The position numbers and the translations under genes were made by a program. From Halorussus gelatinilyticus (lineage in GTDB: Archaea > Halobacteriota > Halobacteria > Halobacteriales > Haladaptataceae), in assembly GCF_023238445.1 (NCBI RefSeq), contig NZ_CP096658.1, positions 3,100,001 through 3,164,000 of the forward strand: a stretch of DNA of 64,000 nt, written 5' to 3'. This document shows positions 11,010-33,104 of this stretch, piece by piece. The notes beneath the pieces are model-generated. The model saw nothing but the letters and a program-made list of their open reading frames with translations. It made no database searches and was not told the origin of the DNA. Position 1 is the stretch's first letter, and each line of letters begins with the position of its first letter.

Positions 11010-13742
11010 TTACGAGTAGAAGACGACGGGGCGGCGGTCGCCACCATGTTCATCCTCAGGAAGGTGCTCTGAGAGATCCTCGCGGGTGTCGTCGCCGAGG
11101 AGTTGGTTGAGGACGTCGACGGCAGAGGCCCGGAGGAGGGGTTTGTTGTCGTTGCCGCAGTTTTCGTCGAAAGTGCAGGCAGGGCAGCCGTTGGGTTGAC
11201 CGCAGTGGCAGTCGCGGAGCTGATCGCGGGCGCGTTCGGCGAGCGCTTCGAAGTTTTCGTAGATGGCGCGAGCGAAGCCGAGGCCTCCGTCGACGCCGTC
11301 GTAGATGAACCAGCCGGAGGCGGTGCGGCCGGTGAGCTCCTGAGTGCGTTGTTCGAGTGCGTGGGTGGCGGCTTCGAAGGAGTCGCCGATGGAGTCGGTG
11401 ATGTCGTCGTAGTCGGGGTGGGCGTAGTGGGTGTCCATGACGAGCGTGGCGAGGCCGCCGAGGTCGTTTTTGTCGACGCGGAGTTCGAGCGGGGCGGTTT
11501 GGATAGTGGCGTGTTCTGCGGCGTGGAGCCCAGCGATGTATCCGAGGTGGGCGATACCGGTGTTTTCGGGGTCGACGCCGGTTTCGATGCCGTAGTCCTG
11601 GTACTTGCGGGTGAGGGCGGTTTCGACGTCTTCCGGGACTTCCACCCAGCAAAGCTGCGTATCCATCAGGATCGGCGGGGTTTCTGTCGGGATTGCTTGT
11701 TGTTTCGGGTCGCTATTGCCAATGTAGAGCTGGTCGTAGGAGTGGTGGTGGACGAGCACGGTTCCGCGGCCGAAGTGGAGAGTGAATCCGTTGACCTCGC
11801 GGGATTCTTCGGACTCGGCGTCAAGAACGTTGACTTTGTTTCGGGTACGGGTGTAGTACTCGCAATCGACTGGTTTGAGTTCGATGATGGGTTGCGGGCG
11901 GTCTTCGTCGACGTTGACGACTTCGAACTGCTGACCGTTCTGGAGGCGGACTGCGCCTTCGTGGTAGTCGCGGTAGGCGCGGTTCTGTTCGATTGGTTCT
12001 AAGTCGAGATCGTCGGGGAGGCCCCACTTGTCACGGTCGACATCGGCTGCGAGTTGAAGGCGGTAGTCCGTGTCGGTGGTGCCGTACAGGTTGACGCGTG
12101 TCTGTGGGCGGCTCGGGCCGGAGTAGTGAACGGCGGCGTCAAGGTAGCCGTCGACGAAGCCAGCTTCGCGCCACATCTTGACGGCAGCCCGAAGTCGGTC
12201 TTCATCCGCGAACGTACCGATATCTGATTCATCGAGTGCGATTTCGTCGGCGGCGGCGAGGACGTGAGTCGCAAAGACAGAGTTGTTCGATGTGTCGACG
12301 ACGGCGTCTTCGACGTCGTTTTCGAGGAGGTACTCGGGATGGTTGAGGATGTACTGATCGAGTGTGCGGTGATCGCCGACGAGGACAGCGAGGCTGCGGC
12401 TTGCTTCGCGGCCGGCGCGGCCGATGCGTTGCCAGAAGGACTGTCGCTGGCCGGGATAGCCCATGAGAACGGTCGCGTCGAGATTGCCGATATCGATCCC
12501 GAGTTCGAGTGCGGATGTCGTTGCGAGGCCGGTGAGGACGCCGGTTTTGAACTGGTGTTCGCGGGAGTGACGGGTGTGGCGACCGAGGCCAGCGTTGTAC
12601 GCTTCTCTCCCGACGGTGGTCGGATGGTCGTATTCGCGGGGGTTGTTCCGGCGGTGTTCGTCTGCCCGCTGGATGCTAAGCTCGGTGAGTTTGCGGCTGT
12701 CGCAGAACAATAACGTGCGGATGCCGCGCGAGGTCAGATGGTTGAAGACTTTCGGCGCTTCGACGCTGGCCGGGACGCGCTCGGCGATGAACTCTTCGCC
12801 TTCCTCTTCTGGATCATTCGCATCGTCGATGTCGATATCGAAGGTTTCCTCTTCGGGCGTAGGGTCCTGTGTTTTGTCCCGCGGCGGCGGGTTCCAGAGG
12901 ATGACGTCGCGGGGGCCGTGCGGCGAGCCGTCGTCATCGATAACGGTCACGGAGGCGTTAATAAGTTCCTCGGAGTGATCCCGGGGGTTCCCGATTGTGG
13001 CGGAGGTGAGGACGTATTGCGGGTCACCGCCCCAGTAATCGGCGACGCGTTGCATCCGGCGGAGGATCCACGCGACGTGCATGCCTTCGATGCCAGTGTA
13101 CGTGTGCGACTCGTCGATGGCGACGAGGTCAAGGGCGCTGTAGAATCGGCTCCACTTGTCGTGGTGTTCGAGGTAGACGTTGAGCCCGGCGAAGTTCGTG
13201 AGGATGACGTCGGCTTGCTCGCGGATGGCGCGTCGGTTGCCTGTTGTATCGCCGTCGTAGATTTCGACGCGGATGTCTAACCCGAGTTGGTCGTACAGTT
13301 CGTCGAGTGCTTCTTGCTGGTCTTTGGTGAGCGCCTTCATCGGATACACGCACAACGCGGTTGAAGCGTCGTTGTGTTCGGCGGCTCTCGTTCCGTCGGG
13401 GTTGAGCACGCCAGCATCGAGGAGATTCCGTGCGATTTGGAGGCCGTAAATGTGAGTTTTCCCGCTGGACGTTGATGTCGTGACGGCGACGTTGTCACCT
13501 GTTTCGAGTGCATTGAGCGCGTCGGCTTGGTGGCTGAACAGGTCGTGCGGGTATGGCTCGGCGAGCTCTGGACGGAGGACTTCCGCTGTCGGGACCGTGT
13601 CCGCTGGTTCGGCTGGTAAGCCGATGGTTTCGAGGTATTCCGAGTCGGGGGTGAGAGAGGTTCTCGGGAACGTGTCTATAATGGTGTCCGCATCAACGTC
13701 GGCTCGTGCGTTCGCGTCGGTCGAGGTGGTGTTGTCACTCAT
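11010..13742 (-). CDS. MrfA-like DEAD/DEAH helicase with DUF1998 C-terminus
   Basis: This SF2 helicase has Walker A TSTSSGKT (residues ~89-96), a DESH box (210-213), TSATIGNP (motif III) and GRAGREASRSLAVLV (motif VI). The C-terminal DUF1998 region carries a Cys cluster (CHCGQPNGCPACTFDENC). This architecture matches Bacillus MrfA/YprA, a 3'-5' helicase that works with the exonuclease MrfB in mitomycin C repair. The gene is the last of the leftward operon, starting 2 nt after the stop of an MrfB-like gene, so the MrfA-MrfB pairing is preserved. The protein is 910 aa, somewhat longer than the bacterial one. Its position beside Argonaute suggests unwinding or resection of cleaved DNA. Confidence 0.85.
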   Translation of the reverse strand: MSDNTTSTDANARADVDADTIIDTFPRTSLTPDSEYLETIGLPAEPADTVPTAEVLRPELAEPYPHDLFSHQADALNALETGDNVAVTTSTSSGKTHIYGLQIARNLLDAGVLNPDGTRAAEHNDASTALCVYPMKALTKDQQEALDELYDQLGLDIRVEIYDGDTTGNRRAIREQADVILTNFAGLNVYLEHHDKWSRFYSALDLVAIDESHTYTGIEGMHVAWILRRMQRVADYWGGDPQYVLTSATIGNPRDHSEELINASVTVIDDDGSPHGPRDVILWNPPPRDKTQDPTPEEETFDIDIDDANDPEEEGEEFIAERVPASVEAPKVFNHLTSRGIRTLLFCDSRKLTELSIQRADEHRRNNPREYDHPTTVGREAYNAGLGRHTRHSREHQFKTGVLTGLATTSALELGIDIGNLDATVLMGYPGQRQSFWQRIGRAGREASRSLAVLVGDHRTLDQYILNHPEYLLENDVEDAVVDTSNNSVFATHVLAAADEIALDESDIGTFADEDRLRAAVKMWREAGFVDGYLDAAVHYSGPSRPQTRVNLYGTTDTDYRLQLAADVDRDKWGLPDDLDLEPIEQNRAYRDYHEGAVRLQNGQQFEVVNVDEDRPQPIIELKPVDCEYYTRTRNKVNVLDAESEESREVNGFTLHFGRGTVLVHHHSYDQLYIGNSDPKQQAIPTETPPILMDTQLCWVEVPEDVETALTRKYQDYGIETGVDPENTGIAHLGYIAGLHAAEHATIQTAPLELRVDKNDLGGLATLVMDTHYAHPDYDDITDSIGDSFEAATHALEQRTQELTGRTASGWFIYDGVDGGLGFARAIYENFEALAERARDQLRDCHCGQPNGCPACTFDENCGNDNKPLLRASAVDVLNQLLGDDTREDLSEHLPEDEHGGDRRPVVFYS

Positions 13743-13744
13743 GG

Positions 13745-15292
13745 TTAGAAGTCGGTGAGGCCAGCTTGTTGTCCGGTTGCGCCGCCAGTGCCGCTGTCGG
13801 TCATATCACGTCGCGTGGCATTCGTGATTGCTTGGTAGACGTGCCAGAGTGCCCGGCAGTCGTCTTCGCAGTACGCCTTATGGCGTTCCCAGTCCGGTTC
13901 AGCCGCTGGAGAGTCCGGGTTGCGCATAAATTCTTGATACGCAGCAGCGGTTTGCGCGCCAGTTAACCCGGTTCCGGCAGGATCGTAGCCGAGCGCGCGA
14001 GCAACGTGGTCGAGTTTGTTCGTTCGACCGGGGAGGAGGGCATTCCCGTCGCGGACGGCCCATTTGTATAGGTCATATGTCCAAATGTCGTTCCAGGCCT
14101 CGACGTATTCGGGGAGGTGCTGTTCAAGGAACTGGGTGATCTGTGGATAGTCGAAGTTGTACCCGTTCCATGTGAGCACTGTTCTGTCTTGGTGGTTGGC
14201 GAGGAACCACGTGATGAACGCTTCAAGTACTGGCTTCGGGTCGTTTGGGTGTTGCTTCTCGATGAACGCTTGATGTGTGTCAGTTGCTGGGTCGTAGACG
14301 CCGAACTGCCAGATGATGGTAGGGGAGAGCCCGTCGGTTTCGATGTCGAGGCAGAGCGGTGGGCGGTCGTCACGTGTCTTGACTGGTGTCTTGTTTGTGA
14401 GAACGATGGGTTCGCCTGAGTCGATGACGTCTGCGTGAGCGTGTATCTTCTCGGCAGTCGTCTGTCCAATGCCGGAAAGGTCCGTGAGCGTACTGATGGC
14501 GAGGTTCTGGACATCGCCCGTTGTTTGACATCCCTGTCTGCGGAGCCGCTTCGCAGTAGACTCGGCGACACCGTTCAGCGCTTTGAGCCCGAACTGATCG
14601 GCGTCGACAGCTTCTGCTGCAACCGTCCCTTGAGGCGTGCAGGTGTACTGTGCGAACTTCAGTCCGTGTTCCTCAGACGCTCCGAGTCCAGAAATCGGGA
14701 CCTGCACTGATGAGTGATTATACGAGAGTGACCACTTGTGGTAGTACTCTGCTGGCTGGCCGCCTGCGAGGACCGTGACTGGTTCGGACAGGGTAGCAGT
14801 GATCGCCGCCAACTGCTCAGCCTGAGGGAGGGTCGTGGAGAGGGTCGTCGTATCCCACTCAACGGAGAGTTGGGGGACGAAGAGGTACGTCGCCGCCTCG
14901 GAGCCTGTCTGCCGCTCACCCGATGACAGCTGGGTCTGAAGTCGAGGGAGGACGTCCCCGCTTTGGACGGCGAGAATGTCTATCGTCTCGGGGGGTGGCG
15001 CTGTGTCAGGTGCTCCGTGAACGCCCGCGTCAGAGGAGTATCGATAGTGGTGGACGCGGTCAGCACCGTGGCCGCGTTGCGGGTGGAGAACTGGGAGGTC
15101 CGGTGCGGCGTCACGGGCGGTCGCATACGCAGTCGGGGTTCGGGCCCCAGGGACAGTAATGAGCGCAGCCGTGAAGTACTGGACAGCGTCACGGACCGCA
15201 GGCTGTGACACGCGGTCGAGGGTAGACGCGGGAAGTGCCAGTAACTCCAGGGGTGTTTCGCCGTCCGTGGTCGAATCGGTGTCTCCGGTCAT
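13745..15292 (-). CDS. MrfB/YprB-like DEDD exonuclease with HhH motif
   Basis: The N-terminal ~230 residues are unrecognised. Residues ~235-290 contain two helix-hairpin-helix-like repeats (ALNGVAESTAKRL and LSGIGQTTAEKI) for DNA binding. Residues ~312-490 are an RNase H-fold DEDD exonuclease: LDIETDG (Asp316, Glu318), WNGYNFDYP (Asp381) and YCEDDCRAL (Asp478). This matches the YprB/MrfB family, the nuclease partner of MrfA; the bacterial protein differs in its accessory domain. The gene lies 12 nt after the Argonaute stop and 2 nt before the MrfA-like helicase, in the same operon. Likely role: trimming DNA ends exposed by the helicase or Argonaute. Confidence 0.8.
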   Translation of the reverse strand: MTGDTDSTTDGETPLELLALPASTLDRVSQPAVRDAVQYFTAALITVPGARTPTAYATARDAAPDLPVLHPQRGHGADRVHHYRYSSDAGVHGAPDTAPPPETIDILAVQSGDVLPRLQTQLSSGERQTGSEAATYLFVPQLSVEWDTTTLSTTLPQAEQLAAITATLSEPVTVLAGGQPAEYYHKWSLSYNHSSVQVPISGLGASEEHGLKFAQYTCTPQGTVAAEAVDADQFGLKALNGVAESTAKRLRRQGCQTTGDVQNLAISTLTDLSGIGQTTAEKIHAHADVIDSGEPIVLTNKTPVKTRDDRPPLCLDIETDGLSPTIIWQFGVYDPATDTHQAFIEKQHPNDPKPVLEAFITWFLANHQDRTVLTWNGYNFDYPQITQFLEQHLPEYVEAWNDIWTYDLYKWAVRDGNALLPGRTNKLDHVARALGYDPAGTGLTGAQTAAAYQEFMRNPDSPAAEPDWERHKAYCEDDCRALWHVYQAITNATRRDMTDSGTGGATGQQAGLTDF

Positions 15293-15304
15293 TGTTGGGG
15301 TTAG

Positions 15305-17914
15305 TTAGATGAAGCCGATTTTATCTCGGAGTTTGTTGGTCGGTGGGAGGTGCTGGCGAGCGGCCGCAGTGCTTGCCAGGTCCGCGTACATTGTCGTGAT
15401 TGGAAGGCGAGCGGTGGCATTGGATGCGCCGACGTGCGCTTGCGACAGGAGGTACGTTTGCGCAGTTAACGTCTCGATGGGGGTATCGCCGTGGACGCGT
15501 TCGACAGTGATGGGTTGTGGGAGTCCGGTGCTTTCTCTGCTGGCGAGGGTTTCGGGTTCCCCAAAGGTGGCGACGATGGCTTTAGGAAGGTCCTCGTAGA
15601 TGGCTGCGGTCGCTTTCTGCGGTGTGTCGAAGTGAGCGCCGCTGTATTTCAGTACGCGGGCTGGAGCTTGCTTCCGGATCTCGACGACATCGTACGCGAC
15701 GTCGAGTTCCGTGAGGAACTTCTCGACTTCGCCGAGGTCTTCGTTTGCGAATCCATCTCGGTGGATCGTGATGTGGTTCGGGTACCGGTCGTATCGGGTC
15801 CGGAAGCCCATCACGGCCTGTTTGACGATCTCTTTGAGATCTTTCGGCGGGATCTTCTCTCCAGACTGCGGTCGAGAGGAGGTGTATCCGAGGACGGCCC
15901 CGTCAGCGTGAATCGCGGTGGTTGCGGCGGCGAGATGGACGTGGTTACCGTTCGCTGATTCGTCGTACTGATGGGTGACGTCGATTCCAAGGTGGAGTTC
16001 TGACTCGCCAGGCAACGCACGCTCAATAGTGAACGGAATGCCTCCTGCAGCCGCGACCAATCCGAGGGCGATGTTGATGATCGTGAATCGCTCGTCGAGT
16101 GTTTCCTCGTGGGCGAACTGGCTGTTGAGGTCCTTCGTAGCGAGAACCTTTTTCACCTCGTCGTAGACTCGCTCCGGATCCGCCGTGTCGAAGTACCCGG
16201 TGTTCTTCGGCGGGAGCGTGCAGAACACGGCGTCGTAATCGTGGTCGTCCGGGATTTCCGCCGCAATTTCCATGCCCAGCTGGTCAGGTGACATCGTCGC
16301 GTCGAAGGTGACCTCTTCGACGCTGTCTGGCGGAGCTCCGATCTGTTCTAGTTTGCTTTCGAGGGTGGACCATCCCCGCTGGATTCGCTTATCCCGTTTC
16401 TCCATCCGGACGTGGCACACGCGGAAGGAATCCGGTGCTTCGTAAACCCCGAGGCTCGTGACGTCACTCGGATGCGTTCCGGTTTTCCCATCACTGAACT
16501 GCAAGACGTCTGCCTCTGGGTCGAAGAGCCCACGGATTGAGACGTTCTCATCGCCGACCAACGGATCTGACTCGAACTCGACGGTGTGCCCGTCGAACTG
16601 AAGTGGGTCAAGTTGTTTGACGAAGTCCTCAGCCTTCGAGATGCATTGCTCGGCTGACAAACGTGTATTGAGCCGTTGTTTCTCCGCAAACTCCGGCGCG
16701 AATCGAGCGAGATTCTCAGGGTGACCTTGGAGTGCCAGGAGTTCAGGTGGGAACGCCATCTCTGTTCCATCGCCCCGCTGACGGACCGTCCAGATAACCT
16801 TACGATCTGCGTCCTCGATTTTCTGTACTTTCGCTGGATCGACCCAGGGTTCCTCGCGGTGATACTGGACGAGGCTTTTGTTCCCCTCGATATGGAGCTT
16901 GTCAGTGACGGTTTCTGACCCCACGCCGATAACGTACAATCCCATATCTCGGTACGTTGGTGTCACCCTGAGCCCAGGATGAATCTCGTCTTCATCGAGT
17001 TGATCGAGCGTCTTGTCCGAGAGAATCCGATGGCGGTAATCGACGTGCAGATAGGCTGCACGCGTGGGGAGGACCTCAACGGTGAGGTTGTATCGCTCGT
17101 GAAGGCGGAACCCCTCTTTCTCGATAACGGGTTCGATTTCTAGGATTTTATCGATTCCGTGGATGTCGTACTGGTCGCGTTTCGAGTCCTTCAGAACTTC
17201 ACCGAGCATTTCACCCAGAATCTCCCGGTCATCTTCGTCCGCGAAAGCGACCGGTCGCTTACCAACCTCGTTAATCTCGAAGCGGGGAAGGTCCACTCGT
17301 TCATGCGCGAGTTTCACGAGGGAAACCAGTTTGAACGCACTCCCAACCACGACCGGCGTGACGTCAAGTTGTTGCCGGACTTTGCGGCGCGCGCGGTACG
17401 TCGCTCGCAGCGCGTTCTCGCCAGAAGGTCGGAACCCTCGCTTCGGAACGAGTTCGTACTCGTAGACGTCGTAGTCTGGAAGATTCTCTGTGGCACGGAA
17501 CGTCGTAAGACCGTGATCGCCACTAGTAGCAGATGTGTCTGGAGTTTCAGCCAGACCGTCTTCGAGAGCTTCCTCTGTACTCGGTGGGCCCGACATTTCG
17601 AGAAGCTTAGCATCACTCTGAACAGTAAGATTCTGGTATCTCTCCCCGTCGTTTCCTTCGTCGATTTCGTACTCGACAGCTGTGATGAGGTAGGTAGCCC
17701 CCCTATCGTAATCTGCTTCGTAGATCTCCTCTGGTGCAGAGTTTTTCCAGATCGTGACGGTCCGGTCATCACCGCCGCCGTCTGTGAATTTCAGGTTGCG
17801 TCGAGGGTACTGACCCTCGTTCTCGAAGACCGCGTCTAAGGTGAATCGAACGGCGTAGGTGTCTCCAACCGGTACGTCGTTGAGTGAGTTCTTGTCAAGA
17901 TTAACTGGTTTCAT
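15305..17914 (-). CDS. Long prokaryotic Argonaute (NgAgo type)
   Basis: An 869-aa protein starting at ATG 17914, which overlaps the upstream stop (ATGA); a longer start at 17941 would overlap 31 nt. The N-terminal ~110 residues look like an OB-fold ssDNA-binding domain (TVTIW...YLITAVEYE), as reported for NgAgo. N, PAZ and MID regions follow, then PIWI. The catalytic tetrad is complete: Asp645 (GIDVTHQ), Glu686 (QSGEK, glutamate finger), Asp720 (IHRDGF) and Asp845 (TTMYADLA). It is therefore predicted to be an active guide-dependent nuclease, probably DNA-targeting as for related long-A proteins. It is fourth of six genes in the leftward operon, between DUF2797 and an MrfB-like exonuclease. 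Guide source and target preference cannot be read from the sequence. Confidence 0.92.
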   Translation of the reverse strand: MKPVNLDKNSLNDVPVGDTYAVRFTLDAVFENEGQYPRRNLKFTDGGGDDRTVTIWKNSAPEEIYEADYDRGATYLITAVEYEIDEGNDGERYQNLTVQSDAKLLEMSGPPSTEEALEDGLAETPDTSATSGDHGLTTFRATENLPDYDVYEYELVPKRGFRPSGENALRATYRARRKVRQQLDVTPVVVGSAFKLVSLVKLAHERVDLPRFEINEVGKRPVAFADEDDREILGEMLGEVLKDSKRDQYDIHGIDKILEIEPVIEKEGFRLHERYNLTVEVLPTRAAYLHVDYRHRILSDKTLDQLDEDEIHPGLRVTPTYRDMGLYVIGVGSETVTDKLHIEGNKSLVQYHREEPWVDPAKVQKIEDADRKVIWTVRQRGDGTEMAFPPELLALQGHPENLARFAPEFAEKQRLNTRLSAEQCISKAEDFVKQLDPLQFDGHTVEFESDPLVGDENVSIRGLFDPEADVLQFSDGKTGTHPSDVTSLGVYEAPDSFRVCHVRMEKRDKRIQRGWSTLESKLEQIGAPPDSVEEVTFDATMSPDQLGMEIAAEIPDDHDYDAVFCTLPPKNTGYFDTADPERVYDEVKKVLATKDLNSQFAHEETLDERFTIINIALGLVAAAGGIPFTIERALPGESELHLGIDVTHQYDESANGNHVHLAAATTAIHADGAVLGYTSSRPQSGEKIPPKDLKEIVKQAVMGFRTRYDRYPNHITIHRDGFANEDLGEVEKFLTELDVAYDVVEIRKQAPARVLKYSGAHFDTPQKATAAIYEDLPKAIVATFGEPETLASRESTGLPQPITVERVHGDTPIETLTAQTYLLSQAHVGASNATARLPITTMYADLASTAAARQHLPPTNKLRDKIGFI

Positions 17915-18777
17915 TGTGCGTCCTCCATTGCCGGGATGCACTCAGCAGGTGCTTCGACCGTGAGCTGTTCTCCTTTTAAATGATCGAAGTTCACTACAGC
18001 GTCCTTCGTCGCCAAAATCTGTCCCCGGACCCCAAGTACCTCTGACTGGAGTTCGTCACCAACAGTGACTTCGGGCAGGTTCAGGACAGTCGCGTCATCG
18101 CCAGAGAAGTGAACCGGGACCGTGATAATCCGATCATCGAAACCGTCCTCGTCATCCGGAAGGACTGAGAACGGTTCTAGAGACCCAGTTAGTACCTCAC
18201 GACAGGAATTTGCAGCCGTGACGAGTTCCTGTTTCGGGTCATCCAGCGGCTCGTACCATTCTTTCGTCGATTCCGTCGACACCACATCATCCAGAGCTTC
18301 TTCGATGATCCCGGCGACACGACGATTCGGTGTTCTCGCAACGACCATACCGTGCGTCGCTCCTTGCTCTGCCCAGCGACTGACATACCGATCTGCCTGC
18401 GTGATGCCAGCCTTCACACAGTCTTTGGCAACTAGGTAGACGACGAAGTTGTGCGCACACGACCGTCGTTTGAACGACGGGAACGGGCAGTCCTGATACG
18501 TACAAGACGTTCCAGGAGTGAAGATGCACTGCTGGTGTGGCGGCTTCGACTGGCACTCCTGGCACGGCGATGTGTCTGCTTGATCTCCGCAGTGCTGGCA
18601 CCGGAATCCAGGCTGGATATCGACGCAGATCTCTTCACCGACGAGACCTGCGAGGTCTATCGGCCCATCCGTATCAGCGAGGTATAGTCGTGGTTTTCCC
18701 CGTGACCAGGAGACCATTGTCGGGTGAGCACTCACTGTAGCCCGAGAGCGGAGCGTAGTAGTCTGTCGAACTGTCAT
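17911..18777 (-). CDS. DUF2797 protein (Cys-rich, GIY-YIG-like core)
   Basis: The N-terminal third has a Cys-rich cluster (CQHCG, CQEC, C...C..C) likely to bind zinc. The middle (VYLV...VKAGITQ...RW.EQGA...R..AGIIEEAL, about residues 112-165) is the signature of DUF2797, which resembles the GIY-YIG nuclease fold in its order of conserved residues. The C-terminal ~100 residues are strand-rich. No function is established for the family that I know of. The start (18777) and stop (17911) both overlap neighbouring genes by ATGA, immediately upstream of Argonaute, which suggests the two proteins are made together. Confidence 0.75.
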   Translation of the reverse strand: MTVRQTTTLRSRATVSAHPTMVSWSRGKPRLYLADTDGPIDLAGLVGEEICVDIQPGFRCQHCGDQADTSPCQECQSKPPHQQCIFTPGTSCTYQDCPFPSFKRRSCAHNFVVYLVAKDCVKAGITQADRYVSRWAEQGATHGMVVARTPNRRVAGIIEEALDDVVSTESTKEWYEPLDDPKQELVTAANSCREVLTGSLEPFSVLPDDEDGFDDRIITVPVHFSGDDATVLNLPEVTVGDELQSEVLGVRGQILATKDAVVNFDHLKGEQLTVEAPAECIPAMEDAQ

Positions 18778-20607: not shown

Positions 20608-20687
20608 CAGTTCCAACGCCTCAAACTATCCAAGATATCCAAAACTATTAAAACCTATTGCTTTGATTGACTATCTGTGGTAGCCAC
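20608..20687. promoter_or_regulatory. Divergent promoter between the Argonaute and Mre11 operons
   Basis: Only 80 bp separate the two start codons. The centre is AT-rich (ACTATTAAAACC, about 20644-20655) and can supply TATA elements on both strands, about 35-40 nt from each ATG. A direct repeat TATCCAA (20627-20633 and 20636-20642) lies on the Argonaute-operon side and could be an operator. The shared control region implies that the two operons are expressed together. Confidence 0.6.
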
Positions 20688-22196
20688 ATGTTGACGCTCA
20701 CGCACATCGCGGACACGCACCTCGGCCACCGGCAGTACGGGTTGAAACAACGAGAGGACGACATGGTGTCGACGACGCGTGCTGCATTCCGTGAAATGGT
20801 CGAGGAGCACGAGACGGACGCGATTCTGCTACCCGGGGATCTGTTCCACTCGCGGGATCTCCGCCCGAAGGTCCTCGACCAAGCAGAACAGGAACTAAGC
20901 AGATTACCGGACGACGTGCCGGTGTTAGTATCCCGAGGGAACCACGACGAGAACTTGACGCCACGCGAGGTGACGTGGCTAAATTATCTGCATCGGCGTG
21001 GCCACATCGTGTTTCTGAAGGCAGACCTGGAGGCGGATCCGGAAACCGCTCGGTTCGACCCGTACGACCCGAGTGACCCGGGGGATTACGCTGGATTCTA
21101 CGACATCGAGGTCGAGGAGTGCGACGGGCCGGTTCGGGTGTTCGGACTCCAATGGCGAGGCGCAAGAACGAGGCAAGCGTTGCAACAGGTGGCAAACGGG
21201 ATTGAAGCAGCGAACGCCGAGCACGGTGAACCGGCAGCGACCGTGCTACTGGCGCATTTCGGAATGGAGGATGAGGTCCCGACGCTCGGCGGGACGGTAA
21301 CGCACGGGGAACTCCGAGATGTGAAAGAGCACGTGGATTATTTGGCACTCGGACATATCCACAAGCGGTACGAGGCTGCTGACTGGATCTATAACCCTGG
21401 CTCCCCGGAAGCGCACAACACGCGCGAAGGCCGCCACGACTGGGAGCACGGCTACTGTTCAATTGCGCTATCTTCCAACGGAAACGAGGCCGAAGACGCG
21501 GTTGAGTACGAAGTGGACCACCACTCGACCAAGCGACGGCCGTACTACCAGGTGGAGTTCGATGTAACGTCGTACGACTCGCCGAGTGAACTCAAAACCG
21601 GGTTCCAAGAGCATGTCCGAGGAGAGCAATCGAACATTGACGAGTATTGCCAGAAGGAGGCGTTCACAGCGAATGGTAATCCCCGCGCGCCGATCATCGA
21701 TCTGCGGTTCACCGGGACATTACAGTTCAGTCGGGGAGACTTCCGGACGGATGAGCTCGCAGAGTGGCTGAAAGACGAGTGTGATGCTCTGTACGTGCAG
21801 GTGAACACAGGGATCCGGACGGCGGACGTGCAGCAACTGATCTCCGAAATCGACGAAGAGGAAGTGTTCCAGGATGGGCGGTTGAACACGAACGCGTTGG
21901 AACACCGGGTGTTCGAGACGATAGCGAAGGAGTCCATCTACGATGACCACGCGGAAGACGTCGCCGACGTGCTGGGGAACGCACACCAGATGGCGCAAGC
22001 GGAAGAGGCAGTCGAAGATATCCGCGATTCGGTGAGCTCCGCACGGCAGGAACTGTTCCCTGAATTGACTGGCAACATCGTGCTTGACATCGATGAGGAC
22101 CCCTTCTCGGACACGGATCCCGATGAGGAGACTGAGTCAGGAGATGAAGAACCCAGTCGAGAGGTCAGCGATGAAGCGGAGGTGGTGCAGCAATGA
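20688..22196 (+). CDS. mre11: Mre11-like DNA repair nuclease
   Basis: The calcineurin-type phosphoesterase motifs of Mre11 are present in order: ADTHLGH (residues ~8-14), PGDLFHS, SRGNHDEN, LAHFG and GHIHKRYE, followed by a capping domain. The C-terminal ~70 residues are acidic. Mre11 is a Mn-dependent 3'-5' exonuclease and endonuclease that acts with Rad50 at DNA ends. The ATG at 20688 is chosen over a TTG at 20667. The stop overlaps the rad50 start by ATGA. First gene of the rightward operon, divergent from the Argonaute operon. Haloarchaea normally carry a chromosomal mre11-rad50 as well, so this is likely a second, element-encoded copy. Confidence 0.92.
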   Translation: MLTLTHIADTHLGHRQYGLKQREDDMVSTTRAAFREMVEEHETDAILLPGDLFHSRDLRPKVLDQAEQELSRLPDDVPVLVSRGNHDENLTPREVTWLNYLHRRGHIVFLKADLEADPETARFDPYDPSDPGDYAGFYDIEVEECDGPVRVFGLQWRGARTRQALQQVANGIEAANAEHGEPAATVLLAHFGMEDEVPTLGGTVTHGELRDVKEHVDYLALGHIHKRYEAADWIYNPGSPEAHNTREGRHDWEHGYCSIALSSNGNEAEDAVEYEVDHHSTKRRPYYQVEFDVTSYDSPSELKTGFQEHVRGEQSNIDEYCQKEAFTANGNPRAPIIDLRFTGTLQFSRGDFRTDELAEWLKDECDALYVQVNTGIRTADVQQLISEIDEEEVFQDGRLNTNALEHRVFETIAKESIYDDHAEDVADVLGNAHQMAQAEEAVEDIRDSVSSARQELFPELTGNIVLDIDEDPFSDTDPDEETESGDEEPSREVSDEAEVVQQ

Positions 22197-24904
22197 AGAT
22201 TACTGAGGTAGCGTTAGAGGATATCAAGTCGTACGAGGGGCGGACAGTCGTGTCGATTGAAGGCGGTGTGACCGCAATCCTCGGTGAGAACGGCGCGGGG
22301 AAATCGACGATTCAGGAAGCGATTGGGTTCGCATTATTTGACTCGCTGCCGTTCAACAATAAGGACTTCGTGCGCGAGGACGCGAGTTCTGGGACTGTTG
22401 AGGTCACATTTGAGCAGGAGACCGCAAAGGGACAGCAACGCTTCCGCGTGACGCGGTCAGCCGGGCGGTCAAACTACGGCGTCCACAGGTACGATTCCGA
22501 GAACGAAGAGTGGATCAACCAAGACATCGATTCCAAATCCCAACTCATCAAATGGTTGTGCGCCCGGTTCGACGTCGAAGATAAAGAGGAGCTGCAGAGC
22601 CTGTGGAAGTCGTGTATCGGCGTTCCGCAGACACGATTCCTCTCTGACTTTGCGGACAATCCGAAGCCACGGAAGGAGAAGTTCGATGCGCTGCTGAATC
22701 TGGATGCGTACGAAGAGTCCTGGAATCGGCTCAAGGACATTCCGGATGCGATTGAGCAGGAGGAACAGAAGCTCCGTGAGGAGATTGCAGGGCTCACGAG
22801 TACGGTACAGGACCTGCCGGACAAGCGGGCGAAAGCGGAATCGCTGGCCGACGAGGTCGCATCAATCGAAGCCGAGATTGAGCGGAAAACCGACGAGCTG
22901 ACTGAGAAAAAAACAGAGCACGAAGAGTTAGAAGCCGTCCAGAATGAAATCGACAGCCTCGAACAGGAGGTGCGGTCACAGGAGCAGGAGATCGAGGCTA
23001 CCAAGCGAGAGCTAGAAGCTGCAGAGAAGGAACTTCGCGCCGCTCAGAAGGCACAGGAGAAATGTGAGGAGAACCGTGAGGGGTATCGCCGGCACGAGGA
23101 AGCGAGTAAGCGGCTGGACGAGCTGGAGGAACGAGAGAGCGAGCGGGACACGCTTGCTGAGCGGAAAGACGAGCAGAAACAGGAGGTCTCGTCGGTCGAA
23201 TTCGAGGTGAACCAGCTTGAAGATGACTTAGAGACGCTGCAGTCGGCGCAGGAAACGTTGGAGGAGCGTGAGGACGAGAAACAGCGGTACGAAGAACTTG
23301 ACGAGAAGATCAACTCGCTACAGCAGCGTGAGGGCGAGGTCGAGGAACTACAGGAACGAATCGACGATCTCACCGGAGATATTAGCGAGAAGCAAGAGAA
23401 GGTGGAGTCGCTCGAAGCGAAAGTTGAGGTCATCGAGGAAGAGTGGGAGGCGACGACGCGTCCGGGGGAACTCGACGAGAAGATTAACGAGCGGAAGGCG
23501 CGCCGGAAGCAACTGAAGAACGAACGGGAACAGCTCGAAGAGCAGTTGGAGCGACTGCGAGATACGGATGTGGATGCGCCGTGTCCGACGTGTGACCGAC
23601 CACTGAAGGAGGAACACCGGTCGGACGCAATCGACCAGCGCGAAGAACGGATCGAAGATATCGACACAGAACGTAAGGAGCTCAGCGAGGAACTCTCTGT
23701 TCTACGCGACCGTCGGGAGGAGGCCCGAAACGTCAAGCAACGTGCCGATAAGCTCCCGGTTCACCGTGAGAAGATCGAATCGTTGGAAGGAGAGGTCGAG
23801 AATCTCCAGGCAGAGAAGTCGGAGGCAGAGGAGACACTAGAGGACCTCGAAGAAGAACTGGCGGAACTGCCAGAACTCGAAGCAGAACGGGATGAACTGC
23901 AGGAAGCGTATGACGAGTACGAGACTGCGGAGTTCCGAGTGCAGGAGCACGCGGACATCCCTGACGAATTAGAGGAGAAACGGGCAGAGCTTGATGCTAC
24001 CAACTCGAAGTTGGAGGAGATCAACGACGAGTTGGCGGAATACGAAGGGCTGGACGAGAAACTGGCCGAGGTCAAGGAGACACTGGAGGAGACCGAGTCG
24101 GCGTATCAGACGTACATCAAGCACGAGCAACAGGCCTCCCAGGTAGAGGAACGGCAACAGGCCGTCAACGAGACGGAAGAGGAACTGGCCGAGCTCAAAG
24201 ACGCCCTTGACGAGACGAAAGCCGAGCTCGAAGAGACGAAAGCAGCGTTCGACGAGGAGCGACTTCAGGCGCTTGAGTCGAACATCGAGGACCTCAAAGG
24301 TGAGATAGAGCGAGCGAAAGGCTCGCTCGAAGAAAAGAAGGAGAATCTCACCGAGACGCGCGAGGAAACCCAGCGCTTAGAGACGGCGTTGGAGGAACGG
24401 CAGGAGAAGCTCCAGCAGTTGAAGGAGCTGAAAGCCGATCACCAGTTCGCGGAGTGGGTCCGGGAGAATGTTCGGGAGGCAGGGCCGAAGATGCGGGAAA
24501 TCATCACCGACCGAATCGGGGCGCGGGCGAACGAGTTGTTCCGGACGATCCGCGGTGCGTCCGCGGAAACGCTTGAGTGGACGAGTGATTACGAGATCGT
24601 CGTTCACGACGCGGACGTGAAGAAGTCGTTCTCGACGCTAAGCGGTGGTGAGAAGATGGCGGCTGCGCTCGCGGTTCGGCTCGCCATCCTCGAACAGCTG
24701 GCGTCGGTCGGCGTCGCGTTCCTGGACGAGCCGACGGCGAATCTCGACCGGCAGAAGAAACGCAACCTGGTGTCACAACTGAAGCAGCTGGATAGCTTCG
24801 AGCAGCTCACTGTCATCAGTCACGACGAGACGTTCGACTCGATGACGGACTACACGATCTCCGTGACGAAAGACCGGCAGACGTCGGAGGTGACGGTCAA
24901 TTAA
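22193..24904 (+). CDS. rad50: Rad50-like SMC-family ATPase
   Basis: N-terminal Walker A ILGENGAGKST (residues ~29-39), then a coiled coil of very high Glu/Lys/Arg content with a zinc hook CPTC at residues 464-467, the returning coiled coil, then the ABC signature LSGGEKMAAALAVRLA and Walker B VAFLDEPTANLD. All Rad50 elements are present and the length (903 aa) is normal. It forms the Mre11-Rad50 complex that tethers and processes DNA ends. It overlaps mre11 by ATGA and nurA by TAATG, indicating coupled translation. Confidence 0.93.
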   Translation: MKITEVALEDIKSYEGRTVVSIEGGVTAILGENGAGKSTIQEAIGFALFDSLPFNNKDFVREDASSGTVEVTFEQETAKGQQRFRVTRSAGRSNYGVHRYDSENEEWINQDIDSKSQLIKWLCARFDVEDKEELQSLWKSCIGVPQTRFLSDFADNPKPRKEKFDALLNLDAYEESWNRLKDIPDAIEQEEQKLREEIAGLTSTVQDLPDKRAKAESLADEVASIEAEIERKTDELTEKKTEHEELEAVQNEIDSLEQEVRSQEQEIEATKRELEAAEKELRAAQKAQEKCEENREGYRRHEEASKRLDELEERESERDTLAERKDEQKQEVSSVEFEVNQLEDDLETLQSAQETLEEREDEKQRYEELDEKINSLQQREGEVEELQERIDDLTGDISEKQEKVESLEAKVEVIEEEWEATTRPGELDEKINERKARRKQLKNEREQLEEQLERLRDTDVDAPCPTCDRPLKEEHRSDAIDQREERIEDIDTERKELSEELSVLRDRREEARNVKQRADKLPVHREKIESLEGEVENLQAEKSEAEETLEDLEEELAELPELEAERDELQEAYDEYETAEFRVQEHADIPDELEEKRAELDATNSKLEEINDELAEYEGLDEKLAEVKETLEETESAYQTYIKHEQQASQVEERQQAVNETEEELAELKDALDETKAELEETKAAFDEERLQALESNIEDLKGEIERAKGSLEEKKENLTETREETQRLETALEERQEKLQQLKELKADHQFAEWVRENVREAGPKMREIITDRIGARANELFRTIRGASAETLEWTSDYEIVVHDADVKKSFSTLSGGEKMAAALAVRLAILEQLASVGVAFLDEPTANLDRQKKRNLVSQLKQLDSFEQLTVISHDETFDSMTDYTISVTKDRQTSEVTVN

Positions 24905-26169
24905 TGCCGATTGATAAACGCGGGGTCGCCAGCGAGTTAGAGGCCAACGTCGAGACGATTGAGTCGTACCTGGAAGACGACTCCGGAATCGTCGAACGCT
25001 ACTTGGACGCGTTTCAGCGCCTCCCAGACGAGTGGACGAGCGATGAGATTCGAATGGCGTTACAGGACACGTCGTATCCGGGCGCATACCCCACGGACGC
25101 GTTCGACAACGCGACCAATGTCATCGTTCCGCACCCGGAGAGTGACGGATGGGAAAACCATGAGGAAGTCAACGAGTGGGCACGCGACATCGTCCGGGAC
25201 GTGCCCGTGATGGCTGTCGACGGGTCACAGCTCCCGCCGACCACGCAGTTCAACGTCCCGGTCGCATACGTGCAGTCGGCATGGGCGGTGAATCATCACC
25301 ACGCGGAAGGCCGACTCGACCGGAGCGTCGAAGGACGACTACTGACGCCTGACGAGGTGACACAGGAATCGGAAGACGGCGATTACCGGTTCGTCGATTC
25401 GCAGCTCGTCGGTCATCATCGCTACGAACACGAAGGGCAGCTCCTGATCGAGAAGTTGTCAGATCTGGCCGCTGCTCGTGACGCGGGAGATATCGAATAC
25501 GCGCCAATAGTGTTCTACGACGGGCCGTTGATCGCGTCGTTTGCGAACCCGTTGAAGCCTGAAACCCGGGAGCGATATCTCTCGACGTTGAGCCGGGTGA
25601 TCGCGGCAAGCCAACACCATGAAATTCCGCTGGTCGGATACGTCGCGGGTTCGAGTGCGACGGAGTTGGTGAAAATGACGCGGCTCCTGTGGCGTGAGGA
25701 GTTCGAAGATGATCGCGTCATTCCGGACGCTCACGTACTGGCAGAGTTGATGAGTCCCTGGGGCGACACGACGGTTCCGTTTATCTCGAAGCGAGACGGA
25801 AGTGTCGACGCGTTACAGGCGACGTACGAGGGTGAGACCTACGAGTTCCGTGATGACATTCTGTTCTCGTATCTGAACGTGCCACCGGGGGCTGGACTAG
25901 ACCGTATCGAATTCCCCGGGTGGCTGTGCCGTCGTGACGGTCCTGACGGGTGCGAGTCGATGTACGAGTACACCGTCGAGATTGTCCGCGCAGAGGCCGG
26001 TATCGGGCGCGGCTACCCCGAGATCCTCCAGCAGGTGGACAGTGATGCTGTGCTGGACCACCAAGACCGCCAAGAGTTTCACCGGGTCGTGCAGCGCTGG
26101 GCCGAATCGAACGACGTGCCACTGGAATGGAACGCCAAGGCACTAAGCAAGGAACTCCGCCGCCGATGA
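24904..26169 (+). CDS. nurA: NurA-family nuclease
   Basis: The NurA active-site segment AVDGSQLPP (Asp106) is followed by VAYVQSAW, a VFYDGPLI strand (second acidic residue) and a C-terminal H.F...VQRWAE helix. NurA is the 5'-3' nuclease partner of HerA and works with Mre11-Rad50 to generate 3' single strands in archaea. The start overlaps the rad50 stop (TAATG). The stop overlaps a 26-aa mini-ORF (ATGA). At 421 aa it is close to the usual archaeal length. Confidence 0.85.
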   Translation: MPIDKRGVASELEANVETIESYLEDDSGIVERYLDAFQRLPDEWTSDEIRMALQDTSYPGAYPTDAFDNATNVIVPHPESDGWENHEEVNEWARDIVRDVPVMAVDGSQLPPTTQFNVPVAYVQSAWAVNHHHAEGRLDRSVEGRLLTPDEVTQESEDGDYRFVDSQLVGHHRYEHEGQLLIEKLSDLAAARDAGDIEYAPIVFYDGPLIASFANPLKPETRERYLSTLSRVIAASQHHEIPLVGYVAGSSATELVKMTRLLWREEFEDDRVIPDAHVLAELMSPWGDTTVPFISKRDGSVDALQATYEGETYEFRDDILFSYLNVPPGAGLDRIEFPGWLCRRDGPDGCESMYEYTVEIVRAEAGIGRGYPEILQQVDSDAVLDHQDRQEFHRVVQRWAESNDVPLEWNAKALSKELRRR

Positions 26170-26246
26170 CAGACCCACATATATCAGAGATGATCAGAGC
26201 ACCGCTCGTCCGACAACCCCGAAGCACCCTAGAGGTGAACCTATGA
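26166..26246 (+). CDS. 26-aa mini-ORF bridging nurA and the next gene
   Basis: The ORF begins with an ATG that overlaps the nurA stop (ATGA at 26166-26169) and ends with a TGA that overlaps the next gene's ATG (ATGA at 26243-26246). The 26 residues (starting MTDPHISEMIRAPLVRQ) are slightly basic in the middle and have no known motif. Gap-free overlaps at both ends are unlikely by chance and would keep ribosomes moving through the operon. It may be a translational coupler only, or a real microprotein. Confidence 0.45.
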   Translation: MTDPHISEMIRAPLVRQPRSTLEVNL

Positions 26247-26908
26247 CAGAGTCAGTAACAGAACTCGATACCCCGGACCTCGACTCGTGTGTCCGGATCG
26301 GGAGCATCGTTTCTTCAAACAGCCACCTCGACTACGTCGTCGAGATCTTCAAAGAGCGAGATTGTGACCGGCCGCCAAAGCTTCACGAGCGCGAATTCGG
26401 GCAACCCGTCTTCATCAAGAAGGTCATTGACGGGACGGAGCATGCGGTCATGGGTGTGATTTACGACACGAAGCTCGTCGATCCTGACCAAGGTCGAACC
26501 GGTCCGCGATTAGCCCAAGACGACCAAGCGCAGTTCACACCTGGATACATCGAGGAGCGAACCACGCTCGCTGGCGTGGCGCTCCTCGGGACAGCTGTCG
26601 TGACCGACGACCGGTCGATTACCGATCCGACGCATCGGATGCCGCGGTGGACGTTAGAGGTCGATGATACGGTCTACCACTGTCCGGATGAGGTGACCGT
26701 CTCCTTCCACACCGTCGACGGGCAGATCCAGCTGGCCTACCTCGACCGACTCATCGACATTGCAGGTGACCTCGGTGCTGAGGTCATCGTCGCACTGATC
26801 GACCGGCTCCGACGGATGCTCCCCGAGGACGATTCGAACCAGCGGGTACTCGATGTGGTGGAGCAAAACATCGAGTGGCAGGCGCACGAGCGCCGGGGGG
26901 TGGTCTAA
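26243..26908 (+). CDS. HerA-associated protein, possible HAS-barrel
   Basis: A 221-aa acidic protein. The N-terminal ~150 residues are strand-rich, starting SCVRIGSIVSS and including HAVMGVIYDT, similar in pattern to the HAS beta-barrel that opens HerA. The last 60 residues are two helices (LIDIAGDLGAEVIVALIDRLRRML and a tail ending in ERRGVV). I do not recognise a named family with certainty. The gene is joined to herA by a TAATG overlap, so it is probably a HerA partner or accessory subunit. Confidence 0.6.
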   Translation: MTESVTELDTPDLDSCVRIGSIVSSNSHLDYVVEIFKERDCDRPPKLHEREFGQPVFIKKVIDGTEHAVMGVIYDTKLVDPDQGRTGPRLAQDDQAQFTPGYIEERTTLAGVALLGTAVVTDDRSITDPTHRMPRWTLEVDDTVYHCPDEVTVSFHTVDGQIQLAYLDRLIDIAGDLGAEVIVALIDRLRRMLPEDDSNQRVLDVVEQNIEWQAHERRGVV

Positions 26909-28551
26909 TGTCCGGGAAGTCCTCCGTTGTCGGTACTGTTGCCGGACCAGGTGATGACCCGAACGAGTTCGTCTTCGTCACCCCTGCGGACAAGTCGATA
27001 AAGACCGGGGAGTTCATCACCTACACTGTCTCCGTCGATGGAGGGAACCGGTCTGTGCTCGCCAGGGTAACGAACCGTGAGTTGATTCGCGGGCTACCCG
27101 AGGGCTTTCTCGCAGATCCCGAGGTTGGTCCAGATACGGTCGCGGCAACCCTCGGCGTCCCGACCGACGACACCGAATTGTACCGGCTGACGGCGACGGT
27201 CATCGGGTACTATGACACTGAGATGACCACGTTCGCTAATCCGCGACAGCTCCCGGCCCCAGGGACACCACTATCGATTGCTCCCGACCAACAGCTCGAA
27301 ACAGTTCTCCCGAACCTCGGCTGCGAGACGGACAGTACTGACGTCACGGAGCTAGAAGGGACTGCGCACCTGGGATGGTTACTGAATCGGTCACCGAAGG
27401 CGACGAATATCCACATTCCAATTGAGGAGTTCGCTTCGACGCACCTGGCAATCCTCGCATCCACTGGGAGCGGGAAATCGTACACAGCCTCTGTGTTGAT
27501 CGAGGAAATGATGGGGGCTGATTCCCGTGCCTCACTACTCGTGTTCGACCCGCACGGGGAATACGATACCCTCGCGGAGATGCAGGGGAACGAGGCATTC
27601 CGAGGCGAGGACGGGTACGAGCCGGAGGTCGTATACTACGACCCTGAACGACTTCGGGTTCGTATCTCGGAACTGGAGATAGGCGACGTCATGGCCGTCT
27701 TAGACAATCCGAGCAACCGGATGCAAGAGCGTTTGTCGACGGCATGGCGTGCGATGCAGCGACAGGAGAGTCGGACGTGGGGTATCGATGAGCTTATCGG
27801 TGAAATGGAAGCGAGATACGGGGAGGATGACGCGAGTGTCGGTGCGTTAGAGTGGCGACTTCGCCAGTCGATTGAGCGGAACGATCTGTTCCACCCCGAA
27901 GACAACGTTCCGCTGAACGAGATCGTGGATCCAGGTCAGTGTACAGTGTTGCAGATGGATACGTTGGATCGGTGGAATCAGCAACTCATCACGACCGTTC
28001 TCTTGCGACGGATGTATCGAGAGCGGCTCGATGCCGTCCGAGACCGAGACTCTCAGATTGAACATCCGCTCTTCGCGCTGTTCGAAGAGGGGCACCGGTT
28101 CGCACCAGCGTCTGGTGATGCGCCGTCACTTGGAATCATGCGAACGATCACGTCCGAGGGCCGCAAGTTCGGCTTCGGGCTGGGAATCATCAGTCAACGT
28201 CCGTCGAAGATCGACCAAGACGTGCTGTCACAGTGCGGGACGCAGATCTCGATGCAAATCAAGAACCCGAATGACCAGGACGCGATCAAGAACTCTGTTG
28301 AGGCTGCCGGTGAAGACGTTCTCCGTGAGTTACCTGGTCTGACGCCTGGGCAAGCGGTCGTCTCTGGCGATGCGATGAATACGCCGGCGCTGATACAAGT
28401 TCGGCAGCGCCGGACGTCCCACGGGGCAGGGAGCCGTCCCGTTATTGAGGAATGGCGTGACGCCTACGATCAGCGGCAGCGTGAACCGACACAGTCCGAA
28501 GCAGCCGACTTTGGTGAAGGCGATTCGACCGGTGTCCAGAGTCTGGATTGA
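26908..28551 (+). CDS. herA: HerA-like hexameric DNA translocase
   Basis: The N-terminal ~100 residues are the HAS-barrel, followed by a RecA/FtsK-like ATPase: Walker A ASTGSGKSYTA (residues ~184-194), LLVFDPHGEY, Walker B LFALFEEGHRF, ISQRPSKID (sensor) and a C-terminal brace. HerA forms hexamers that drive DNA into NurA for end resection. The ATG at 26908 is used because it overlaps the previous stop (TAATG); the ORF extends upstream to 26875 without support. Last gene of the rightward operon. HerA proteins are also recurrent in bacterial anti-phage systems, which fits the context. Confidence 0.9.
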   Translation: MSGKSSVVGTVAGPGDDPNEFVFVTPADKSIKTGEFITYTVSVDGGNRSVLARVTNRELIRGLPEGFLADPEVGPDTVAATLGVPTDDTELYRLTATVIGYYDTEMTTFANPRQLPAPGTPLSIAPDQQLETVLPNLGCETDSTDVTELEGTAHLGWLLNRSPKATNIHIPIEEFASTHLAILASTGSGKSYTASVLIEEMMGADSRASLLVFDPHGEYDTLAEMQGNEAFRGEDGYEPEVVYYDPERLRVRISELEIGDVMAVLDNPSNRMQERLSTAWRAMQRQESRTWGIDELIGEMEARYGEDDASVGALEWRLRQSIERNDLFHPEDNVPLNEIVDPGQCTVLQMDTLDRWNQQLITTVLLRRMYRERLDAVRDRDSQIEHPLFALFEEGHRFAPASGDAPSLGIMRTITSEGRKFGFGLGIISQRPSKIDQDVLSQCGTQISMQIKNPNDQDAIKNSVEAAGEDVLRELPGLTPGQAVVSGDAMNTPALIQVRQRRTSHGAGSRPVIEEWRDAYDQRQREPTQSEAADFGEGDSTGVQSLD

Positions 28552-30521: not shown

Positions 30522-30588
30522 GTGCTTCGATACTGATCCAAGGGAACGTATATACGAGACAAACAACCAAGAAATAGAACACATCAAA

Positions 30589-31953: not shown

Positions 31954-32022
31954 CAAGGTGTAGTACCCGAAGGGGTAGGATCACTTTCCAACTGTTTAAG
32001 TGGATTCTTGACTATCGCTTGT

Positions 32023-32127
32023 ATGAAGCATAGAACCACTGGAAGTTCCTTCGCTGTAGAGGGATTCGGGATTGAACGGCGAGCGAGCGAGAACGGTGAG
32101 GTGAGTACGGTGGGGAGGCATCGATGA
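32023..32127 (+). CDS. 34-aa small ORF coupled to the TraB-like gene
   Basis: An ATG at 32023 lies 29 nt after a TATA-like TTTAAG (31994), ideal spacing for a leaderless transcript. The ORF (MKHRTTGSSFAVEGFG...) ends with TGA overlapping the next ATG (ATGA). No known motif. It may act as a leader peptide that couples translation of the downstream gene. Confidence 0.35.
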   Translation: MKHRTTGSSFAVEGFGIERRASENGEVSTVGRHR

Positions 32128-32819: not shown

Positions 32820-33059
32820 GTCGGGAACGAACTACTCACCCTCGTTCGCTTCACTTTCTGTACTTCCCACGCATGTAATGGTGGAGTGTGAATACAGGTA
32901 TAGCGTACTGTGACACAACCAACCCCTTTGCACGCTGGAGTCCATCACTGTTGACCCCGGACCCATGGAGAACCGGGCCGGGTGCTGCGGTCAGTAGCTA
33001 TTAGTTTTATCCGATTGCCCCAGGCCCCAATCGTCACTCTCCATCGAGGTTGAACCCCC

Positions 33060-33086
33060 TGTCCAGAATGTCCAGGATGTCGAGAA
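33060..33086 (+). repeat. Three tandem 9-bp boxes
   Basis: TGTCCAGAA, TGTCCAGGA and TGTCGAGAA follow each other without a gap. The 9-bp phase is close to one helical turn, so a protein could bind the three on nearly one face. Confidence 0.7.
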
Positions 33087-33104
33087 GACGTTTTCCCTAT
33101 AAAT

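Follow-up and report, generated by a model that had tools for sequence, protein, structure and literature searches.

Within a 64,000-nucleotide stretch of the haloarchaeon Halorussus gelatinilyticus (positions 3,100,001-3,164,000 of the single 3.67-Mb contig NZ_CP096658.1, hereafter the window), a long, catalytically intact prokaryotic Argonaute (pAgo) is coupled to a complete extra set of Mre11, Rad50, NurA and HerA and to an MrfA/MrfB-type helicase-nuclease pair, as a preliminary description of the same DNA had proposed. We read this arrangement as a mobile anti-invader locus in which an intact long-A Argonaute acts together with machines dedicated to processing DNA ends, and put the probability of this reading at roughly 0.6. 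It draws on protein identities, intact motifs, purifying selection, a gene order and promoter kept between genomes, and pairings that arose repeatedly and independently, from which we infer the mechanism proposed below.

Two divergent operons and their products

The minus-strand operon (11010-20607) comprises the genes for MrfA, MrfB, the long pAgo, a DUF2797 protein, an orphan 239-residue protein (U239) and an AAA ATPase with a winged helix-turn-helix domain (AAA-wHTH), while the plus-strand operon (20688-28551) encodes Mre11, Rad50, NurA, a 26-codon mini-open reading frame (mini-ORF), a HAS-barrel HerA partner (U221) and HerA (Table 1). Every reading frame of the preliminary description was found in place, although its text counts eleven products and its own list twelve. 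The two divergent operons with a common promoter region that it had described are also present, a gap of exactly 80 bp (20608-20687) separating in-frame ATG starts. The claim that almost all genes are joined by ATGA or TAATG holds for most junctions, but not for three. ATGA overlaps, read from the sequence, occur at U239/DUF2797, DUF2797/Ago, Mre11/Rad50, NurA/mini-ORF and mini-ORF/U221, and TAATG junctions at Rad50/NurA and U221/HerA; the AAA-wHTH and U239 genes instead overlap by 8 bp, and gaps of 12 bp and 2 bp are found at Ago/MrfB and MrfB/MrfA. The C-terminal half of the mini-ORF is kept in Halobellus (G215) and Natrinema hispanicum (G275), but just 10 codons are left in Halopiger (G219); judged from these sequences, the mini-ORF is therefore probably a translational relay rather than a conserved peptide.

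The gene identities first proposed were borne out by domain, motif and structure matches. The Argonaute is a long protein with a PIWI domain and the DEDX tetrad expected of a long-A pAgo, here an intact DEDD (D654/E695/D729/D854) located by motif search and by alignment to CpAgo (9jh7), its closest alignment partner. An SF2 helicase with an MZB domain neighbours an RNase H-fold exonuclease, as in MrfAB. Mre11 has the complete set of phosphoesterase motifs, and Rad50 has Walker A and B, the LSGGE signature and a CxxC hook. The DUF87 ATPase HerA has a P-loop (STGSGKS) that aligns to that of Thermococcus kodakarensis HerA, from the HerA-NurA complex, and is accompanied by a NurA domain protein, for which no sequence match was found among solved structures. 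No family match was obtained for U221 in profile searches, but all 36 of the 36 best PDB matches (Foldseek) of its AlphaFold2 model (pLDDT 83.9, from a 24-sequence alignment) are HerA entries, and the model superposes on HerA residues 1-152 with a Z score of 12.7 (VIA-align); on this modelling we take U221 to be a free-standing version of the HerA N-terminal (HAS-barrel) region.

The remaining proteins of the Argonaute operon are less familiar. U239 gave no Pfam or NCBIfam match and its AlphaFold2 model was unusable (pLDDT 35); it is 84-89% identical in three other genera, with ratios of non-synonymous to synonymous substitution (dN/dS) of 0.07-0.10. DUF2797 adjoins the fetched Argonautes of the window's clade and is absent from 28 Ago-free control loci. 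The AAA-wHTH protein is probably a regulator controlling the common promoter, and its profile matches that of the AAA_14-DUF4143 ATPase found beside other pAgos only weakly, in the P-loop region (hhalign probability 93).

Table 1. Features of the Argonaute locus and the associated PLD nuclease gene, in window coordinates.
Feature	Position	Strand	Supporting evidence
MrfA/YprA-type SF2 helicase, 910 aa, DEAD + Helicase_C + MZB zinc domain (formerly DUF1998)	11010..13742	-	Pfam DEAD 2.2e-21, MZB 4.2e-15; Cys motifs C845HC / C853PAC
MrfB/YprB-type RNase H-fold exonuclease with HHH, 515 aa	13745..15292	-	Pfam RNase_H_2 2e-28; DxE motif LDIET at 315
Long pAgo, 878 aa from GTG; probable ATG start at 17914 gives 869 aa	15305..17941	-	PADLOC pAgo PDLC02391 1153 bits; Piwi 5.6e-17
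DUF2797 protein, 288 aa, two CxxC pairs	17911..18777	-	Pfam DUF2797 7.1e-26
Orphan U239, 239 aa	18774..19493	-	Seen only in the window's Ago sub-clade
AAA ATPase (GPSGIGKT) with C-terminal winged helix-turn-helix	19486..20607	-	wHTH Pfam matches; Walker A at 92
80-bp divergent promoter	20608..20687	.	Core AACTATCCAAG..CCAAAACTATTAAAACC; compared across 4 loci; single site in the window
Mre11, 502 aa	20688..22196	+	Metallophos 1.5e-12; PDB Mre11 1ii7 3.7e-15; motifs ADTHLG, GDLF, GNH, AHFG, GHIH
Rad50, 903 aa	22193..24904	+	Walker A, LSGGE, Walker B, CPTC zinc hook
NurA nuclease, 421 aa	24904..26169	+	PF09376 3.5e-26
Mini-ORF, 26 aa	26166..26246	+	ATGA-coupled to the NurA and U221 genes
U221, read as stand-alone HerA N-terminal (HAS-barrel) protein, HerA partner, 221 aa	26243..26908	+	AlphaFold2 model and structure matches
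HerA DNA translocase, 547 aa from ATG 26908	26908..28551	+	DUF87 4.1e-35; T. kodakarensis HerA 9x1l 9.2e-39
Ago-associated-type PLD nuclease, 761 aa	37235..39520	-	HxK-x15-GSxN motif; relatives beside Ago or HerA elsewhere

Recurrence of the locus and of Argonaute pairings

The 11 main genes recur in identical order, MrfA-MrfB-Ago-DUF2797-U239-AAA-wHTH facing Mre11-Rad50-NurA-U221-HerA, in Halobellus inordinatus, Halopiger djelfimassiliensis and Natrinema hispanicum, with 71-98% amino acid identity and with flanks that differ among the three. Another genome of the window's genus (G136) carries a near-identical copy in which the order is kept. DUF2797 is not among the gene calls of the relatives and was recovered with tblastn at 78-80% identity. 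Values of dN/dS were 0.02-0.14 wherever computable (HerA against Halopiger was saturated), and the promoter core is kept in four loci. The repeated conservation of both operons in unrelated flanks, which had been proposed as a check, was thus found in three other genera, and since the array recurs there in order and under purifying selection it is not a product of chance.

Argonautes quite different from the window's are paired with the same type of cassette (type 1, Mre11-Rad50-NurA-U221-HerA) in two further genomes, as AGO-PLD-Mre11-Rad50-NurA-U221-HerA on one strand in G054 and as AGO-Mre11-Rad50-NurA-U221-HerA in one same-strand run, plus MrfBA, in G173. A second type of Mre11-Rad50-NurA-HerA set (type 2) lies beside the Argonautes of G125, G153, G287, G027/G163 and G270. 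In G287 (Mre11-Rad50-NurA-HerA-PLD-AGO) and G125 (Mre11-Rad50-NurA-HerA-PLD-DUF2797-AGO) the Argonaute is the last gene of the same-strand run, and at most junctions in the runs of G287, G125, G054 and G173 the genes overlap or are separated by a short gap. Close relatives of the type-2 NurA (at least 71% identity) are present in three genomes, in all three beside an Argonaute. The pairing with Mre11-Rad50-NurA implies at least five changes on the Argonaute tree and at least five on the Rad50 tree. Ten genomes hold both an Argonaute and a type-1 cassette; the two are adjacent in seven, compared with about 1% expected at random placement, and the adjacency still has p of about 0.016 when island clustering is allowed for tenfold and the window's clade is counted once.

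End-processing genes are common around haloarchaeal Argonautes in general. A helicase-nuclease set of this kind lies within 10 kb of 32 of the 42 haloarchaeal pAgo loci, with Mre11 and/or Rad50 at 14, UvrD-PDDEXK (AddA-like) at 15 and MrfAB at 10. The 28 cassette loci without an Argonaute, drawn from one and the same genome set, contain UvrD-PDDEXK once and MrfAB once, which is rarer than at the Argonaute loci (p 0.001 and 0.04, uncorrected for relatedness). MrfB copies at least 62% identical to the window's occur in 14 of the 392 Halobacteriales genomes that made up the survey set, eight of them beside an Argonaute. Examples on plasmids are Salinigranum rubrum, with Piwi, SF1-PDDEXK, Mre11 and Rad50 genes in a row; Haloglomus halophilum, where Piwi adjoins MrfAB; and Halobaculum litoreum, with a window-type PLD, Piwi and then PDDEXK and UvrD genes. 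Free variation of the pAgo neighbours, which the preliminary description had named as counting against it, is thus not what is seen: the neighbours belong to a limited repertoire of end-processing machines. We suggest tentatively, at somewhat below even odds, that the long Argonautes of haloarchaea constitute a class in which pairing with a cis-encoded end-resection engine is recurrent and the engines are interchangeable; the engine would both destroy the target and make guides, and the locus would be a self-contained Argonaute immune system. The engines counted in this class are the two Mre11-Rad50-NurA-HerA types, the AddAB-like UvrD-PDDEXK, MrfAB, and SF1-PDDEXK with Mre11-Rad50.

An exchangeable cassette in a defence island

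With U221 as marker, the type-1 cassette was found in 36 of the 392 genomes, in the same five-gene order wherever the context was complete; the neighbourhoods fetched around the cassettes usually spanned 40 kb, some being cut by contig ends. In thermophilic archaea mre11-rad50-nurA-herA is a standard operon (PMC7776575), and the set in the window might accordingly be the normal chromosomal repair copy that happens to adjoin an Argonaute. The window genome (G000), however, has another Rad50, of 26% identity, about 640 kb away, and two NurA matches, the cassette copy and its own. NurA of some kind is present in 372 of the 392 genomes, and the cassette in just the 36. Moreover, the cassette Mre11 and Rad50 fit Pyrococcus- or Sulfolobus-type models better than haloarchaeal ones (for Rad50, 237 bits against thermophile-type models and 153 bits against the haloarchaeal model). 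We rejected the chromosomal origin on these grounds and give it next to no credence; the preliminary description had named such an origin among the outcomes that would count against it. The thermophile operon has the same four proteins with conserved catalytic motifs, whereas the haloarchaeal cassette has an extra HAS-barrel subunit, is mobile, lies in defence islands and coexists with the native Rad50 and NurA. A review states that Haloferax volcanii lacks HerA and NurA (PMC7776575); our H. volcanii control did match NurA.

A related possibility is that the resection machines serve repair or self-protection, mending breaks that the Argonaute makes in host DNA or helping it to resolve replication or recombination intermediates. 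Native MrfAB and Mre11-Rad50-HerA-NurA are repair machines (PMC12458937, PMC7776575), and pAgos aid decatenation and recombination in a manner dependent on RecBCD or RecA (PMC10269773, PMC10164581). Yet a native Rad50 and a native NurA are already encoded in this genome, the cassettes are mobile and island-borne, and the operon often includes a PLD nuclease, a protein that was toxic in the published case; attack is more consistent with such company than repair is. We regard a repair role as improbable.

Several observations weigh against an Argonaute working with dedicated end-processing machines. No Argonaute is present in the fetched neighbourhood of 28 of the 36 type-1 cassettes, and one more cassette (G112) is 27 kb from its Argonaute, an 887-residue relative at 40% identity with no Mre11-Rad50-NurA or MrfAB genes in its immediate neighbourhood. 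Conversely, 10 of the 42 Argonaute loci lack an end-processing set within 10 kb. At the genome level, co-occurrence of Argonaute and cassette is modest (10 genomes, 4.7 expected, p 0.01, uncorrected for phylogeny), and all these loci are in defence islands, where neighbours cluster anyway. The Halopiger HerA (G219, L042) is broken into frames of 394 and 198 residues in an otherwise intact locus, and the G173 Argonaute (L067) is split by an in-frame TAA into abutting parts of 577 and 262 residues next to an intact cassette; the pairing is therefore not indispensable everywhere.

The Ago-free cassettes adjoin other candidate front-ends, namely McrB-like, TmtA-like, TerB/ATPase/DEAD or PLD genes, and these may use the type-1 cassette too. 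On plasmid unnamed4 of Natrinema zhouii (L228) genes for TerB-N, an ATPase and a DEAD helicase precede a type-1 cassette, all on one strand; an Ago-PLD pair is carried by another plasmid of this strain. The Halopiger cassette groups with Ago-free cassettes while its Argonaute groups with the window's (support 88), from which it appears that cassettes have been swapped between loci. With 28 of the 36 having no Argonaute nearby, the cassette is exchangeable and the locus is not one fixed unit. A fixed 11-gene unit across haloarchaea was rejected, cassette and Argonaute often being apart. A conserved-DNA search of plasmids recovered cassettes or MrfAB, but in no case the complete locus. We also rejected a virus-borne locus, no relative of the Argonaute or U221 having been found in viral contigs by a search that reaches close relatives only. 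Of the interpretation offered in the preliminary description, the linkage of Argonaute to resection sets thus stands, but the two operons are not an obligate system: the cassette is regularly apart from Argonaute, and most haloarchaeal Argonautes have other partners.

The same distribution, and the discordant Halopiger grouping, would be expected if two or three separate defence systems merely shared an island and a promoter region, with the cassette as an anti-phage nuclease in its own right (compare Lamassu and the HerA-nuclease systems) and the Argonaute and MrfAB acting alone. The scores of Rad50 against LmuB and of HerA against HerA defence models are also in keeping with this. Against it are the same-strand runs that contain both Argonaute and Mre11-Rad50-NurA-HerA in G287, G125, G054 and G173, and the similar pairing of the distant type-2 cassette, whose close NurA relatives are never seen without an Argonaute. 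We therefore consider separate systems unlikely, if less so than a repair role, and prefer an Argonaute acting together with the end-processing machines.

The PLD nuclease at 37235-39520, which the preliminary description did not mention, lies 19 kb from ago and 9 kb beyond HerA. In G215 and G275 a PLD gene follows HerA directly (93 and 102 bp), and in Halobaculum litoreum an 81% identical relative of the window PLD is encoded just upstream of Piwi; it is a probable further component, displaced here. Between HerA and the PLD gene, at 29130-36422, are defence-like genes for an ATPase_2/DUF234 protein, an Mrr endonuclease, a TraB-like protein and an Eco57I-type methylase. Two integrase-like genes, one identified by Pfam and the second by similarity to the first, lie beside a tRNA-Glu gene at 40636-43430, where a low-GC island has its right edge; the island reaches at least 20 kb past the left end of the window. 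A search at the tRNA-Glu gene (43355-43430) for att repeats of at least 16 bp returned none in the 63 kb to its left, which leaves the left boundary of the island unfixed.

Relation to known systems and proposed mechanism

The closest published counterpart is APAP of Natrinema pellirubrum, a long-A pAgo with the PLD nuclease AgaP that removes plasmids and restricts an ssDNA virus (PMC11442185). In both cases a haloarchaeal long-A pAgo retains its tetrad, the PLD nucleases belong to a single family, and a divergent AAA ATPase (c7 family) is often nearby. The published system, however, has two genes, and only an occasional neighbouring helicase and no Mre11, NurA or HerA are mentioned (PMC11442185), whereas a full resection set is present here and the window Argonaute is 26% identical. 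In APAP agaP is directly beside ago in one operon, unlike the distant PLD gene of the window, and the split HxK(x)49GSxN motif gave a spacing of 49 for N. pellirubrum AgaP and 15 for the window PLD in the same test; on these two features the locus was not filed as a member of APAP. G154 in our sample is evidently the N. pellirubrum APAP locus, its PLD having the published H105/K107. The split motif is exceptional, shared by only the N. pellirubrum AgaP (49) and two close relatives (47), while nearly all other Argonaute- or cassette-associated PLDs, at about 30 other loci, have the 15-residue spacing.

Other comparisons are more distant. NgAgo of Natronobacterium gregoryi, a haloarchaeal long pAgo, attacks plasmid and phage DNA in Escherichia coli, in a report that does not discuss its genomic context (PMC9040764). 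The MrfAB (YprAB) of Bacillus subtilis likewise pairs an MZB-domain helicase with an RNase H-fold exonuclease in neighbouring genes, but is known as mitomycin repair factors, and a 2025 survey of YprA does not mention Argonaute (PMC12458937). MrfA matches the DruE and DrmA models weakly, and the 11-gene cluster is unlike DISARM, Druantia and ARMADA in having no DrmB/DrmC, BrxHII or PglX partners. Rad50 matches LmuB of Lamassu (131 bits), but no LmuA or LmuC model was matched among the cluster proteins tested. Mre11, Rad50 and NurA are not named beside Argonaute in Makarova 2009, Ryazansky 2018, Cheng 2024 or the 2025 YprA preprint, Rad50 not having been looked for in the last two. 'Hydrolases and phosphatases' are reported in 10% of long-pAgo operons (PMC6299218), a category that might include Mre11 unnamed. 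Full-text searches of the open literature, with subscription papers and supplementary tables outside their scope, returned no description of a pAgo with Mre11-Rad50-NurA, and the earlier statement that no described defence system has this gene set agrees with what we found there. The best reading is a variant of pAgo-plus-auxiliary-nuclease defence, kin to the pAgo-PLD (APAP) theme and previously undescribed as far as we found.

Published support for guided cutting followed by resection is by analogy, from CbAgo with RecBCD, from small DNAs derived from double-strand breaks and from haloarchaeal pAgo-PLD. CbAgo, the Argonaute of Clostridium butyricum, generates breaks and cooperates with RecBCD in E. 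coli (PMC10164581), and pAgo small DNAs follow the processing of double-strand breaks, for which RecBCD is not strictly required (PMC10269773). The proposed logic is alike, with guided cuts passed to a helicase-nuclease that degrades the invader and shapes guide production; there, however, a repair enzyme of the host, encoded away from ago, serves as the helicase-nuclease, whereas here Mre11-Rad50-NurA-HerA and MrfAB are encoded in cis. The Argonaute, with short guides, would nick or cut (or mark) high-copy foreign DNA. Mre11-Rad50 would open the ends, and a HerA hexamer, capped or adapted by the HAS-barrel protein, would pump DNA into NurA for processive degradation, while MrfA/MrfB would unwind and trim from the 3' side. 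Fragmentation would destroy the invader, and the fragments may be loaded as new guides. The locus would then be an archaeal, cis-encoded counterpart of CbAgo acting with host RecBCD.

Two questions about long pAgos are open, namely where their DNA guides come from and by what means an enzyme that nicks slowly can clear an invader; host RecBCD is involved in bacteria. If haloarchaeal Argonautes do bring along a resection machine in their operon, both would be testable through single-gene deletions at one locus of a tractable archaeon. Mre11-Rad50-NurA-HerA would moreover gain a role in immunity, and its spread as a mobile cassette in haloarchaea that already hold repair copies would be explained.

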